Below, piece after piece: positions 4,599 through 16,530 of a stretch of DNA of 24,045 nucleotides; position 1 is the stretch's first letter; each line of letters opens with the position of its first letter. Both the position numbers and the translations under genes were made by a program. Under the pieces are notes generated by a model, which made no database searches, was not told the DNA's origin, and saw only the letters and a list, made by a program, of their open reading frames with translations. Location of the stretch: positions 1 to 24,045 of the IMG/VR virus record IMGVR_UViG_3300020452_001287; one strand, written 5' to 3'. The stretch comes from a virus.

Positions 4599-4781
4599 CT
4601 ATTGGATCGGCTGGTTTGGGCAGAACGCCCATGGGCCCGGCCCTGCAGAGGGGTATTCAACCCCCCGATACATCAGCATCTTGGGCTGTGCTTTCACGGC
4701 TACTTTTTGAGCGGCTTTTAAAGCCTGCTTCTTTTGCGTCTTGTTACGGACGATCTCTAACACGTTCATGGCTTGCTCCAT
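4599..4781 (-). CDS. small DUF4278-like cyanobacterial-type protein
   Basis: 60 residues, starting MEQAMNVLEIVRNKTQKKQ. The first 33 residues are a basic helix (QKKQALKAAQKVAVKAQ); the C-terminal part is MLMYRGVEYPSAGPGPW. A (L/M)(M/T)YRG..Y motif is characteristic of the short cyanobacterial DUF4278 proteins, which supports a cyanobacterial host. A G-rich string (GGGGGGTGG on the minus strand) precedes the ATG at a suitable distance for ribosome binding. A start four codons later (MNVLEI) is equally possible. Function unknown. Confidence 0.6.
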   Translation of the reverse strand: MEQAMNVLEIVRNKTQKKQALKAAQKVAVKAQPKMLMYRGVEYPSAGPGPWAFCPNQPIQ

Positions 4782-4893
4782 GCAGCCACCCCCCGTTGCT
4801 TGGGTGGATTCAGTGCAGCCTCACTAGGCTCAACGTATCCCCAGCGTAGCCGTTTATACCAATGTTTGCCCTGTTACAAACGGGCTTTGCAAG
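4782..4893. other. intergenic region 3' of the tRNA gene
   Basis: 112 bases between the DUF4278-like gene and the 3' end of the tRNA. No ORF is supported. A GCCC-N10-GGGC inverted repeat lies at about 4868-4885, directly past the tRNA end on the minus strand; it has no T-run, so it is not a convincing terminator. If the tRNA 3' end is the recombination core, this is one flank of attP. Confidence 0.3.
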
Positions 4894-4966
4894 TGGAGAA
4901 TAGCGGGCTCGAACCGCTGACCTCATCCATGCCATGGACGCGCTCTACCAGCTGAGCTAATTCCCC
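4894..4966 (-). tRNA. tRNA-Ala (anticodon GGC)
   Basis: A complete cloverleaf is present on the minus strand. The acceptor stem GGGGAAT pairs with ATTCTCC along all seven positions and includes the G3:U70 wobble pair that identifies alanine tRNAs. The D arm is GCTC-AGCTGGTA-GAGC, the anticodon stem is CGTCC/GGATG with loop ATGGCAT (anticodon GGC), and the T arm is AGCGG-TTCGAGC-CCGCT. The discriminator base is A, and CCA is not encoded (ACTT follows). The gene lies about 330 bp from the integrase start and could be a working tRNA, the attachment site, or both. Confidence 0.93.
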
Positions 4967-5293
4967 TTTGGCTGTGCGTTTAAGCACCTGACCAATATAC
5001 AGGAGCGCTTTAGGGCAGTGATACGCCCGTTCCCTGAGCGCCGCTTTCGTTACGGAACGACAGAGCCACTGGTAGACAGCTGCTGGTAGAACTGGTAGAA
5101 CGGCTTTGTCAGCCCAGTCCACGACTGCCTTTCTACCTGCATGGCATACAGTTTCACGGAAGCTGAAAACCATTGCAGTCACAGGGTTTTTGGGATTTGC
5201 TGGTAGAAACTTTTTCTACCAACTCCTACCAAATTCACCCTTCTACCACCGAATTTTGGCCTCTTCTACCAGTTATGCAAGGGGTCTCTACCA
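4967..5293. repeat. array of ten TGGTAGAA-type sites between tRNA and integrase
   Basis: This 327-bp stretch has no supported gene. From 5069 to its end it holds ten close copies of an 8-9 bp motif, consensus NTGGTAGAA. In plus orientation: 5069, 5083, 5092, 5200. As TTCTACCA in minus orientation: about 5131 (variant ACCTG), 5214, 5224 (variant TCCTACCAA), 5241, 5264, 5286. The last site runs into the integrase GTG start. Such short repeats beside an integrase and a tRNA are what arm-type integrase or excisionase binding sites look like in attP regions; that role is inferred. The same CTGGTAGA string occurs in the tRNA D arm, as it does in most tRNAs. Confidence 0.75.
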
Positions 5294-7030
5294 GTGGATT
5301 TGGATCGGTATGTTGAGGGCAAGGTTGATCCAACACAACCCTGGAATGAATCGATGGCTCCGGCTGCAGGAACAATCCTTAAGTACGAATTACAGCCCAG
5401 GAATGGGCGACCCCGGTCCATCGCTCTAGAGATCGAAAAGAACACCCGGCATTACCGGATAAGGGCAAGGGATTACAGCCGAGATAAAAACATCATCTCC
5501 AAAAGCCTCGGCCTTAAATGCCCCTCCAATTGCTACTCAACTGACGAGGCGGTCAGTCATCTGCGCGAGCACCCCGAAATATGGATGTTCTTCGAGGGCT
5601 GGAAAGAGACCATGGAGGCCGGCAACTGGCCCAAGGAGCTACGGCAGAAGGTTGTGTCTCAGGGCGTCAGTGCAGCGGCCCGAGCGTTCCCTCACGGTTC
5701 GCTTGGTGACATGCTCCGGTGGTATCTGAAATCACCTCTCGGATCAGAGGGGCAAAAGCAGCAGTTCGCTAGTAATGCTCGCGAAGTTTTAACTCTGAAA
5801 CGAGACAGATACGAGGCTTTTGCTCACCTGGATGCTTCTGATTTAAGCGTTTCCCATGTCAGTGAAATGCTGCGCCAGTGGCAGGCCGAGGGGAAATCAA
5901 TGCACACGTTCCGGCAGGCCTGCACGCTCTTATCAAAGGGGCTGAACACCGCCTGCGACAGGCCGGAACAAACGGGATGCAGACGCGGTCCTGATTACGG
6001 GATTGTCGTCACTGACAAGATGAATTTGCCGAGCAACCCCTTCAACACGGTGCGCCGTGATTTAGATGCGGTGATTGCCCGAAATCGAATGGATGACCCG
6101 GACAAGGGGCCAGATCCGTTTGATCACGACGAGTGCCGAGCAATTCTGACCGTATTCCGCAAGACACCTGCCCTACGACCTTATTGGCCTTTAGTCGCAC
6201 TGTGTCTGTCCACAGGAGCGCGACCTAATGAAATCTTGGCTTTGCCTTGGTCAAACGTTCTTGGTCTGTGGAAGGGCTACTCAATGCGCAGCCGTGAATT
6301 TCTGGTGGACCCTGCAGAGCGCCAGTTGCACGGTGGGCCGGTGATGATTTCGAGGGCCGTTTGTAAATACAACGCCCGACATCTAATGAAAACCATGCGG
6401 TTCAAGAACACAAAGAACCGGAACGAACGTCGTCCAAAATTGAACCGCTATATACCTGGATATGAAGACCTTTTTAAAGCTGCAATTGAGGCGCGGTTAC
6501 CTACTCGCCTAGGCGTCACGAACTTGCCAGAGTTTCGCGACATGTTGGTTTTTCAGGGGCCGCGTTCACGGTCTACCCGGGAGGCCTACCGCACCGATCC
6601 AACCACCACACGCTTGATTCGTAGCGAGCACTCACCAAGCGGCGGTAGTGGTACTGGGAACTCCAGGGTTGCTGAACTCCACAGGTTTAAGGAGCGGGGG
6701 CGAACCGGTCGGCTCACGCACCACATGATCAAACCCTCCTTGGATGCAGATGCACGCGCAACCGCTACCCCAAATTTTGCACTGTTGACCGGGAACAACG
6801 ATCCGTTTCTTCCTTTTGACTGGCACAACTTTGCTCGCTATTGGAAGCAAGGGCTTGAGCTTGCTGGGGTTCGTTATCGGTCCCCGTACCAGATGCGGCA
6901 CACGTATGTGTCATTGATGTTTTACGAGGGTCACGCCGATCACGACATCGCGGCTTGGATCGGTGACACTCCGCAAACGATGAAGGAGCGATATCAGGGG
7001 CGCATTTTGCGCGGCAACCTGGATCTATGA
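5294..7030 (+). CDS. int: tyrosine recombinase / phage integrase
   Basis: 578 residues from GTG at 5294; the first in-frame ATG (MAPAAG) would remove 20 residues. The C-terminal catalytic domain is recognisable: box I LCLSTGARPNEILAL (Arg310), box II PYQMRHTYVSLM (Arg535, Tyr532 where many have His, a common variant), and the Tyr567 nucleophile in TMKERY. The usual GH before the nucleophile is GD here (WIGDTP, Asp558), which is atypical. The protein is long: the gap from box I to box II is about 225 residues and includes a polar, Ser/Arg/Gly-rich insertion (about 420-495). The N-terminal half should hold the core-binding and possible arm-binding domains. It would act on the adjacent tRNA-linked attP and may bind the repeat array overlapping its own start. 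Confidence 0.9.
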   Translation: MDLDRYVEGKVDPTQPWNESMAPAAGTILKYELQPRNGRPRSIALEIEKNTRHYRIRARDYSRDKNIISKSLGLKCPSNCYSTDEAVSHLREHPEIWMFFEGWKETMEAGNWPKELRQKVVSQGVSAAARAFPHGSLGDMLRWYLKSPLGSEGQKQQFASNAREVLTLKRDRYEAFAHLDASDLSVSHVSEMLRQWQAEGKSMHTFRQACTLLSKGLNTACDRPEQTGCRRGPDYGIVVTDKMNLPSNPFNTVRRDLDAVIARNRMDDPDKGPDPFDHDECRAILTVFRKTPALRPYWPLVALCLSTGARPNEILALPWSNVLGLWKGYSMRSREFLVDPAERQLHGGPVMISRAVCKYNARHLMKTMRFKNTKNRNERRPKLNRYIPGYEDLFKAAIEARLPTRLGVTNLPEFRDMLVFQGPRSRSTREAYRTDPTTTRLIRSEHSPSGGSGTGNSRVAELHRFKERGRTGRLTHHMIKPSLDADARATATPNFALLTGNNDPFLPFDWHNFARYWKQGLELAGVRYRSPYQMRHTYVSLMFYEGHADHDIAAWIGDTPQTMKERYQGRILRGNLDL

Positions 7031-13722: not shown

Positions 13723-16530
13723 TTAAGATTTCGTTAACGCATCGTCGCCTGTGAACCAACCTAGACCATTTTCGTCAAAACGTGCCTGGTGATACAATTC
13801 GTTGAGGTCAAATTCTGCTCTATCCGTCCCCTCCCTATGTGTTCCTGAATTTGCAACTTTATTCAAATCGCTGTCCTGGGCAGGGTTTAAAGCGTTGCAA
13901 TGGGTATCAGGTGCAACATTAATATTCTGAGAATCCTGACCCGAAAGCGTTTCCATTAATGACGCATCTGCAACGCAATTATTGCCACGCTTAACTTTTT
14001 CAGGTTTTGCAGTGCTTTTGCAGGATTCATCGTTTTGTTGCCGCGCACCTGCAACATTATTCAAATCGCTGTTAGGGACTGTGTTTTTGTAATTATGATG
14101 AGATGATGATCCCCCCCTCTCCTCGCGAGGCGCACTGTTTAAGCGTTCGAGGAGTTCGAGGCCTTCTGCAGTACAGGCGAACCAGTGACTTTCTGGAGCA
14201 CCTCTACGGCCCTCTGCAGGGCCTGGAGCTGATTGGATGAGCCTGCGGGTCTTAAGACGGTTTAAAGCGCTTCTAAGGGTGCTGGCTGTGGCCCTGCGTC
14301 CGATCGACACCTCCAGCTCTTTGCGGGTTGTTGATTCCCCTCTTGTGGTCTGTGTACGGATAAAGCTGTGAACCAGATCAATGACGGGTGTTTTCCCGCT
14401 GTACTTTCTTTTTCTTTCTACGGGCGTGAAATCTTCGATATCCAAAGAGTCATCGTCATGCAGAAGTGTGACTAGCTTGTCATTTTCACGGCCAATTCTT
14501 GATTTGCCAATAGTGATGATTCTGCGCATTTCTGTATCTGGACCATAAACATCTTCCTTGCATTCATCTTCACTGGGTTTATCTAATGCCCAGGTCTCAG
14601 TAACAGCGTCTCCGATACTTGAGTGCCCTCTAAATCCTCCATTGCGATTATTGTGATGTAATATAAGAATTGAACAGGCTGGGAATTCAGTACCATTATC
14701 GACTTCTAAGTCTCTTAGAGGTTTAGATATCTCCTGCTTATTATTATCCACCAAAGGCATACATCCAGACAGTGAGTCAATGATGACTAACTGAGGCTTA
14801 AGCTCGTTTAATTTTTGATAAAAACGGCGCTGCCACTTGAGTCTGAACTTTGGCCACGAATAAAAATTAGGGTCTTCATTGATACCGTGAGACTCTAATT
14901 GGTTCTCAAAGATTTCCCTGGACTGGTCTCCGTTGCACCATAAGACGGTCCCTTTTCGTACCGGCATATTTGCTCCTCTGACTTTAAAGGGACGGCCTTG
15001 CAGGATGTGTTTTGCAATTGCTGCAGCGGTCTGTGATTTACCTGTCCCGTAACCTCCATGCAGGCAGATCACGCTTGGAGTCAGCAATAAATCGGGAATG
15101 ACAAAATCCAGACCTACTAGGCCTTCACGTCGTTGAGTGCAGTTTTGGGGACCCGCCGCGGTTCTGAAGTCGTGGTCGTCCTGTAGGGCCTGATAGATCT
15201 GTTCTGTGCCCCAGCGCAGCTGGTGATCTGAAGCAAGGCGAGCGAACTCAATCGATTGCTCTGCTGGATTTTCAAACGTTTTCTCAATCCACCTGGCCCA
15301 CTCCAACGTGGATTTGTCCTTGGGGTCGTAGGTGACCTCCCGTTTGAAGGCGACAGCTGCCTGAAAATCGTCCGGGTAGGTCTTACCCAGCAGTTTTGCG
15401 CCTTCTATGCAGTATTCCTCCAAGGTGGCGGCATTAGGCCAGCCGGCGTCAATGTCCCCAGTTCTGAGGGCGTGCAACAGCTTGATAGCCCCGCCGCCTA
15501 CACGTTCCTTGTGGCACAACCAGCCAAATAACCCGCGCCCTTTTTCTTTTCCTTCCCCTTGCTGATCAGGCCAAAGGGTGAAGCTGGTTCCTGATTGCGA
15601 GTCATGAAACGGGCAACCTCCGACCAAAGGCTTTTCAGGGTTTCCGTGCTCCCTGGCCAAGGGCTGGCGGTCTTCTCTCCAGACATCAGCCTTGTAAAAC
15701 TGCCAAACCAAAGCGTTCGGATCATCTGGCCCGGTTTGCTTGCCCTGGCTGTCTGTACTGACCAAAGGTTCGAGGATCTGAACCTTGAAATCGCGGGCTA
15801 ATTGCTTGACGTTTTTCCCACTCAGTGGGGCCTTGTCCAAGCCTTGTTCCAGGGACTCCATCAACGCAGCCGGAACATAAGTTTCCGACTGTTGGCTGTG
15901 GTGGTCCATCAACCAGCACAAGATGCGATCAGGCAGATCCGCGACCTTGCCTCCGTTGTATGACAGCCACGAATATTGCCCCTGGGTGTCCGGGTGATAG
16001 GACCCCGGCAACACGGAATAACAACCGCCGTAGCGAATGCACACCTCAGAGTTTCCGCCTTTTTTCAGGTCTTCGTCGAGCTGCTCCCGAATCATTTTTT
16101 CAAAAAACTGGCGGTGGCCCTCTGGCATCCGGTACAGCAATTGGCGATTTGTGGGTTTCCCTCGCCAAGACATGGTCCCCGGGTCAGCTATGGCCGGATA
16201 TTCCTGACCCATAAACGCTTCAAAAACCGCCTCAGCCTCTAGCCCGTCAATATCAACAGCGACCAAATATCCACCCGCAGGACCCGTTAAGACACCGAGG
16301 CCATTCTTTTTGACCGTGCGCAGGGCTCCGGTCTTGCGGTTTTTGACTTTTGATGTTTGACGCCACTTTTTAAAGACCTCCTCAGGGCTCAGGCCTTTGT
16401 TGCAATCTCCGTTGAACGCCCATTCAGGCGTTTTCTGCCCCGTGAACGCGGCCTTGTCTTCAAGGATGTTGTAGGTCCAGTCCTTAGGGAATGTGCCATT
16501 TCTCAACTGGTCTATTGCGCTCTCGTTCAT
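13723..16530 (-). CDS. primase-helicase fusion (AEP prim-pol plus RepA-type ATPase)
   Basis: 935 residues. Residues 30-205 are an archaeo-eukaryotic-type primase/polymerase domain: GVLTGPAGG, the metal-binding VAVDID (Asp93, Asp95), and VLPGSYHPDTQGQY with His179. Residues 300-350 carry a zinc-finger-like CPFHDSQSG...WLCH (Cys306, His309, Cys339, His340). Residues 485-690 form a RepA/RecA-type ATPase: Walker A GGYGTGKS, Walker B LVIIDSL (Asp585) and HHNNRNGGFRGHSSIGDA. Residues 705-800 read as a winged helix (TRKELEVSIGRR...SALNRLKTRRLI). The last 130 residues are polar and probably disordered, with N..VA(N/G/D/P) repeats. It starts the replication operon and should make primers and unwind DNA. 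Confidence 0.88.
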   Translation of the reverse strand: MNESAIDQLRNGTFPKDWTYNILEDKAAFTGQKTPEWAFNGDCNKGLSPEEVFKKWRQTSKVKNRKTGALRTVKKNGLGVLTGPAGGYLVAVDIDGLEAEAVFEAFMGQEYPAIADPGTMSWRGKPTNRQLLYRMPEGHRQFFEKMIREQLDEDLKKGGNSEVCIRYGGCYSVLPGSYHPDTQGQYSWLSYNGGKVADLPDRILCWLMDHHSQQSETYVPAALMESLEQGLDKAPLSGKNVKQLARDFKVQILEPLVSTDSQGKQTGPDDPNALVWQFYKADVWREDRQPLAREHGNPEKPLVGGCPFHDSQSGTSFTLWPDQQGEGKEKGRGLFGWLCHKERVGGGAIKLLHALRTGDIDAGWPNAATLEEYCIEGAKLLGKTYPDDFQAAVAFKREVTYDPKDKSTLEWARWIEKTFENPAEQSIEFARLASDHQLRWGTEQIYQALQDDHDFRTAAGPQNCTQRREGLVGLDFVIPDLLLTPSVICLHGGYGTGKSQTAAAIAKHILQGRPFKVRGANMPVRKGTVLWCNGDQSREIFENQLESHGINEDPNFYSWPKFRLKWQRRFYQKLNELKPQLVIIDSLSGCMPLVDNNKQEISKPLRDLEVDNGTEFPACSILILHHNNRNGGFRGHSSIGDAVTETWALDKPSEDECKEDVYGPDTEMRRIITIGKSRIGRENDKLVTLLHDDDSLDIEDFTPVERKRKYSGKTPVIDLVHSFIRTQTTRGESTTRKELEVSIGRRATASTLRSALNRLKTRRLIQSAPGPAEGRRGAPESHWFACTAEGLELLERLNSAPREERGGSSSHHNYKNTVPNSDLNNVAGARQQNDESCKSTAKPEKVKRGNNCVADASLMETLSGQDSQNINVAPDTHCNALNPAQDSDLNKVANSGTHREGTDRAEFDLNELYHQARFDENGLGWFTGDDALTKS

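Follow-up and report, generated by a model that had tools for sequence, protein, structure and literature searches.

A ten-site array between a phage tRNA-Ala gene and an integrase gene resembles an attP and surrounds a putative tRNA-derived core

Published attP sites carry four to six arm sites, placed to either side of the core, and in phage CrimD these are inverted across it (PMC3203893); the attP of lambda has five (PMC4880445). Where tRNA and int genes are divergent and recombination sites cover the int promoter, autoregulation is predicted (PMC2951348). In actinobacteriophages a further arrangement, tRNA-dependent lysogeny, has been described, in which cores of 8-17 bp occur together with a phage tRNA (PMC10865867). 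The operators of recombination directionality factors (RDFs) have relaxed specificity and follow one another as direct repeats at intervals of one helical turn (PMC7498355).

Here we analyse a linear virus record of 24,045 bases (the window), in which repeated sites lie between a complete tRNA-Ala(GGC) gene and the gene of a tyrosine integrase (int; Table 1). Like the attP of lambda, CrimD and Pixie, this region appears to have arm-type sites flanking a short core, together with a tyrosine integrase that has an N-terminal extension, and as in CrimD the groups of sites are largely inverted across the proposed core. Unlike these three, with their four to six sites, the window has up to ten, the last of which touches the start of int, and binding of the sites by the integrase is predicted from sequence.

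Table 1. Features of the putative attP region and its surroundings in the window; site assignments and the core are proposals.
Feature	Position	Strand	Evidence or remark
Glutamine-II riboswitch (RF01704)	4785-4838	-	34.7 bits, cut-off 33
Complete tRNA-Ala(GGC)	4894-4966	-	ARAGORN; Rfam RF00005, 59.3 bits, full length; proposed replacement of the host copy
tRNA D-arm, CTGGTAGAGC	4942-4951	-	13.1 bits by the array matrix; candidate eleventh site
Arm-type site 1, TGGTAGAC	5070-5077	+	Left group; unchanged in relative
Arm-type site 2	5084-5091	+	Left group; unchanged in relative
Arm-type site 3	5093-5100	+	Left group; unchanged in relative
Site 4, AGGTAGAA	5131-5138	-	Overlaps left flank of proposed core; unchanged in relative
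Proposed attP core, CCTGC-ATGGCAT-ACAG	5136-5151	+	7-bp overlap ATGGCAT (5141-5147), imperfect inverted repeats flanking; unchanged in relative
Arm-type site 5	5201-5208	+	Right group, 60 bp from core centre; unchanged in relative
Arm-type site 6	5214-5221	-	Right group; unchanged in relative
Arm-type site 7, TGGTAGGA	5224-5231	-	Right group; unchanged in relative
Arm-type site 8	5241-5248	-	Right group; unchanged in relative
Arm-type site 9	5264-5271	-	Right group; unchanged in relative
Shine-Dalgarno-like AAGGGG of int	5278-5283	+	Sequence reading
Arm-type site 10, TGGTAGAG	5286-5293	-	Between Shine-Dalgarno and GTG; unchanged in relative
Tyrosine integrase, 578 aa	5294-7030	+	PHROG 1, E 7e-17; Foldseek: Tn1549 Int, E 8e-6, lambda Int, E 1.3e-3
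HTH_17/excisionase-like protein, 74 aa	7031-7255	-	PHROG 66, E 1.4e-6; Pfam HTH_17, 5.8e-5, below its cut-off

The interval between tRNA-Ala and int holds ten matches to TGGTAGAA, each with at most one mismatch, between 5070 and 5293 (four on the plus and six on the minus strand). GGTAG is constant in all ten, in nine the 8-mer is preceded by C or T, and with that base included the consensus reads YTGGTAGAA. Ten copies of an 8-mer in 225 bp compare with no more than seven in 207 other pieces of the window, a maximum reached by a low-complexity word, and with no more than five in 150 dinucleotide shuffles of the array region. By weight matrix the array sites score 11.8-17.0 bits, while the best place in the window apart from the array and the tRNA D-arm scores 12.0. 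The array is confirmed as real and lies far above chance, in agreement with an earlier, sequence-only reading that had described ten near-identical sites in both orientations. That reading gave most spacings as 11-25 bp and had the sites fill the whole 225 bp; both statements need correction, since the starts are 14, 9, 38, 70, 13, 10, 17, 23 and 22 bp apart and a site-free gap of 62 bp extends from 5139 to 5200. We think that this gap is the most informative part of the array. The array does extend to int as first described, site 10 with one further base (5286-5294) finishing on the G of the GTG codon.

The sole relative found is IMG/VR contig 3300035228_002511, which is 86% identical across 3.1 kb, and the array is carried by these two sequences only. 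Loss of the sites in a close relative had been named beforehand as evidence against the earlier reading; the relative keeps all ten, with 0 of 80 bases changed in sites versus 11 of 144 in spacers (Fisher p 0.009), a test that is weak with two sequences but points in the expected direction. A scan of IMG/VR with the motif retrieved seven stretches versus zero for the reversed motif, four of which (L004-L007) look like chance or coding sequence. In an unrelated phage (IMGVR_UViG_3300040856_002599, 3334-3678), eleven TGGTAGAR-like sites occupy 300 bp behind a primase-helicase gene, several of them exactly 10 bp apart and with two copies of GTTGGTAGAAATAAGCTTTTTCTACCAA; no match to the window integrase and no tRNA were found in it. 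Another stretch (IMGVR_UViG_3300031566_000704, 2598-2656) has two TTGGTAGAA-N8-TTCTACC inverted repeats within a tRNA cluster, between tRNA-Arg and an HNH-like ORF, the second overlapping an ATG in operator-like fashion. A scan for direct repeats returned mostly periodic arrays, none with an integrase. Searches with the integrase by tblastn against phages and plasmids gave only weak partial matches, the primase as bait found no relatives, and the integrase alignment as bait yielded no usable or confirmed loci.

For comparison, 120 IMG/VR stretches were collected with a degenerate pattern for the box RYR.PYQ.RHT. The best 8-mer family per flank has 3 to 7 members (187 flanks of 105 integrases), which bears out the earlier claim that the ten sites of the window exceed ordinary arm-site sets. 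Four of the comparators (L048, L075, L101 and L109) have clear arm-site sets, in which about six sites are split by 104-129 bp (start to start) that contain none. In the window the sites starting at 5093 and 5201 are 108 bp apart, much like those of these comparators, if the site at 5131 is counted with the core; judged by its position, this site may serve in core binding and not as an arm site. The left-group sites lie at -47 to -70 from the core centre, and the right-hand sites, which begin at +60, +73 and +83, are close to the positions of P'1-P'3 in lambda. Leptolyngbya phage Lsp-JY17 (PP438409) resembles the window in having a complete tRNA beside int and a related integrase, although the relationship is weak and distant (E 4e-5; 26-31% identity in alignments). 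It has about six repeated 8-bp sites; unlike those of the window, its TTGAGCAA sites flank the tRNA itself, a complete tRNA-Gly inside a 151-bp site-free stretch, so that crossover there is probably inside the tRNA. In Planktothrix phage PaV-LD (2120-2147), three GATTAGAC repeats with exact 10-bp spacing lie just before the integrase gene and are possibly unannotated arm sites.

In the window integrase Tyr567, Arg310 and Arg535 are conserved; the third-box position, usually His, is Asp558, and a mostly low-confidence insertion of about 80 residues (425-506) precedes the second Arg box. The AlphaFold2 model, built from 39 sequences, has a mean pLDDT of 60.7, and residues 28-101 are predicted as three strands followed by helices, the layout of an arm-binding domain, at a pLDDT of about 55 or lower. 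We propose that this N-terminal domain binds the ten YTGGTAGAA sites as arm-type sites and that the array serves both as attP and as the control region of int. That the array comprises the arm-type sites of an attP we regard as very probable. The large integrase complex suggested by the sequence-only reading gains indirect support from the low-confidence N-terminal fold, the specific sites in mixed orientation and their conservation in the relative, and that interpretation of the array is, overall, partly supported.

A different ligand would be the 74-aa HTH protein, whose gene is convergent with int and which, by its match to PHROG 66 ('excisionase and transcriptional regulator'), is a candidate RDF. 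Coating of the region by such a protein, with the sites as its operators and int repressed, would be in keeping with its HTH_17/excisionase-like family. Some RDFs, such as Apl of phage 186, are also transcriptional repressors with 5-7 operators, located at promoters or at att (PMC7498355). The direct repeats of RDF operators were not found here: the array has both orientations, an irregular spacing of 9-70 bp and five invariant bases, and the weight-matrix scan placed no site near the HTH gene itself. Because mixed orientation, irregular spacing and five invariant bases contrast with RDF operators, this site pattern makes the integrase the likelier ligand, and we consider operators of the HTH protein improbable.

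The region might also consist of iterons, a replication origin or a partition site lying before int by accident. The eleven similar sites behind the primase-helicase gene of the unrelated phage lend this some weight, as does a cumulative GC skew that changes slightly near 4-5 kb. In the window, however, no replication or partition gene was recognised adjoining the array, its own primase-helicase gene (13723-16530) is more than 8 kb off with no sites nearby, and the last site overlaps the start region of int, leaving an explanation of this kind with little probability.

The position of the last sites raises the question of control. An integrase occupying the right-hand sites, of which site 10 is located between Shine-Dalgarno and GTG, would also repress int; such autorepression is plausible by precedent and from the position of site 10. 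The layout is like that of the KplE1 intS type (PMC2951348) in that probable integrase sites lie over the int 5' region and tRNA and int are divergent. Unlike KplE1 intS, the window has no recognised int promoter (a scan for sigma-70-like promoters of int recognised nothing), and repression is here suggested by site position alone. An array concerned with int only, as operator or RNA leader, would explain why six sites are within 93 bp of the start with one between Shine-Dalgarno and GTG; in a leader, repeats of UUCUACCA could pair with tRNA D-arms, to which CUCUACCAG is complementary. An RNA hairpin in the int leader was rejected, the predicted structure being no better than shuffles (z -0.53). 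The left-hand sites, moreover, lie 200 bp away from int, most of them in the opposite orientation, and the D-arms of folded tRNAs are not free for pairing, so that a purely int-regulatory array seems very improbable.

The gap contains a sequence that the sequence-only reading had missed and that changes the meaning of the adjoining tRNA. Its centre, ATGGCAT, is identical to the anticodon loop of the phage tRNA-Ala(GGC), and the isotype of that tRNA agrees with the anticodon of the core. The similarity extends further in the tRNA-Ala(GGC) genes of Ruegeria, Novosphingobium and Methylorubrum, whose anticodon arm reads CCTGC-ATGGCAT-GCAGG: extended by one base (CCTGC-ATGGCAT-ACAGT, 5136-5152), the core agrees with these alphaproteobacterial arms at 15 of 19 positions, 12 of them contiguous, compared with 13 of 19 for E. 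coli tRNA-Ala(GGC); with the phage's own tRNA it has 8 bp in common. The core was noticed post hoc and its best-fitting tRNA picked afterwards, which flatters the shuffle figures: the alphaproteobacterial match was equalled by 2 of 3000 shuffles, and ATGGCAT with three or more of the five stem pairs occurred in 0.17% of shuffles of the intergenic region (1.5% for the 7-mer alone). A 70-bp run around the core is unchanged in the relative and is not significant (P ~0.17). Around the proposed core the repeated sites are divided four to the left and six to the right, whereas they would be one-sided if the core were in the tRNA. We favour a core at 5141-5147, with appreciably less assurance than the attP itself.

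The arm sites would thus flank ATGGCAT as a copy of the anticodon arm of a host tRNA-Ala(GGC). Integration at this core is expected to split the host tRNA-Ala gene without rebuilding it: with the Ruegeria tRNA as a stand-in for the host gene, neither model junction at 5141-5147 is a tRNA by ARAGORN, a result conditional on both core and stand-in. The complete phage tRNA-Ala(GGC) would then replace the broken host copy and keep the lysogen alive. By reading, this tRNA has the G3-U70 alanine identity pair and A73. Its anticodon stem, CGTCC/GGATG, has intact pairing and is spelled differently from that of the core, which we infer would spare the phage tRNA from its own integrase. Cyanophages such as S-BM1 have a tRNA-Ala(TGC) with nearly the same body, and there the stem is CCTGC/GCAGG.

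The short putative core, the predicted lack of a rebuilt tRNA and the complete phage tRNA of the same isotype lead to a reading as tRNA-dependent lysogeny, and by analogy the arrangement resembles the one described for actinobacteriophages. As in the systems of Fionnbharth, Gaia and other actinobacteriophages, the short core, if it is tRNA-derived as proposed, would have junctions that do not rebuild the tRNA, and a complete same-isotype phage tRNA is nearby. Unlike those systems, the window is not an actinobacteriophage by any match, its tRNA is about 175 bp from the core, and both lysogeny and the disrupted host gene are predictions. Taken with all its steps as set out above, from arm-site binding to repression of int, we hold this account to be evenly poised between right and wrong. 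Against it stand the post hoc recognition of the core, the restriction of the array to two sequences, the low confidence of the N-terminal fold and the failure of the searches to find a host, lysogen or integrated relative. In addition, the readable tRNA-Ala(GGC) genes with a CCTGC stem are alphaproteobacterial, while tRNA body and integrase point to cyanobacteria, and the presence of a complete tRNA next to int would also suit a conventional crossover within that tRNA.

Such a conventional tRNA attP is the main rival. Crossover would take place inside the phage tRNA-Ala and rebuild the host tRNA, the arm sites would be one-sided, and ATGGCAT in the gap would be there by chance. The phage tRNA is identical in the window and its relative although the aligned DNA differs by about 14%; a model swap inside its anticodon loop still yields a tRNA by ARAGORN; in Lsp-JY17 the repeated sites flank a complete tRNA adjoining int; and divergent tRNA-int pairs are a known shape (PMC2951348). 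All this would fit a tRNA-borne core, but known and comparator attPs are two-sided, and the far (left) side of the phage tRNA has no site above 9.9 bits by weight matrix, under the array minimum of 11.8. In addition, about 140 bp separate the anticodon loop from the nearest site, and joining the phage stem CGTCC/GGATG to a host half with CCTGC/GCAGG would produce mispairs. On balance we judge a conventional crossover inside the tRNA unlikely, though deserving of serious consideration.

The earlier observation that the motif recurs in the D-arm of the adjoining tRNA is sound: there CTGGTAGAGC scores 13.1 bits and outscores every other place in the window outside the array. The string TGGTAGAG is common in tRNAs. 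From its sequence, the D-arm copy may be an eleventh site, the source of the array or a chance match; growth of the array from tRNA sequence, as first suggested, is neither supported nor excluded. A stand-in alphaproteobacterial tRNA carries CTGGGAGAGC in place of CTGGTAGAGC, and the motif is therefore no general feature of the proposed target. Some 30 bp ahead of the 5' end of the phage tRNA, TGTATATT (4992-5003, minus strand) is kept in the relative and is a possible -10 element of the tRNA's own.

The window also encodes a B12-type ribonucleotide reductase, a DNA polymerase I-like polymerase, a primase-helicase, ThyX and a dCTP deaminase. Integrase and polymerase have weak matches to phages or plasmids of Leptolyngbya, Planktothrix and Pseudanabaena, and together with the tRNA body and the glutamine-II riboswitch these sequence similarities point to a cyanobacterial host. 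The riboswitch is directly before a 60-aa ORF (4599-4781, minus strand) that contains YRGVEY and whose peptide has no Pfam match. A paper on a marine methylophage (PMC9004378) reportedly uses the term glutamine riboswitch many times, so the riboswitch alone is insufficient to settle the host. The exact phage tRNA (57 nt) and a looser 3' pattern were absent from the genome collection, and no host, lysogen, or integrated copy or relative was found.

It is a tentative and rather doubtful proposal that tRNA-dependent lysogeny occurs here outside actinobacteriophages, probably in a cyanobacterial phage, with a ten-arm attP, a host-derived core and a replacement tRNA-Ala with a rewritten anticodon stem. 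If it is true, phages far from actinobacteriophages would also break a host tRNA gene and supply the replacement, which would give one reason for the single tRNA genes found beside integrases, and the anticodon stem of replacement tRNAs would be predicted to deviate from that of the host copy. An attP with ten sites would also offer a natural case for the role of more than six arm sites, be it in the order of assembly or in a strong shut-off of int.
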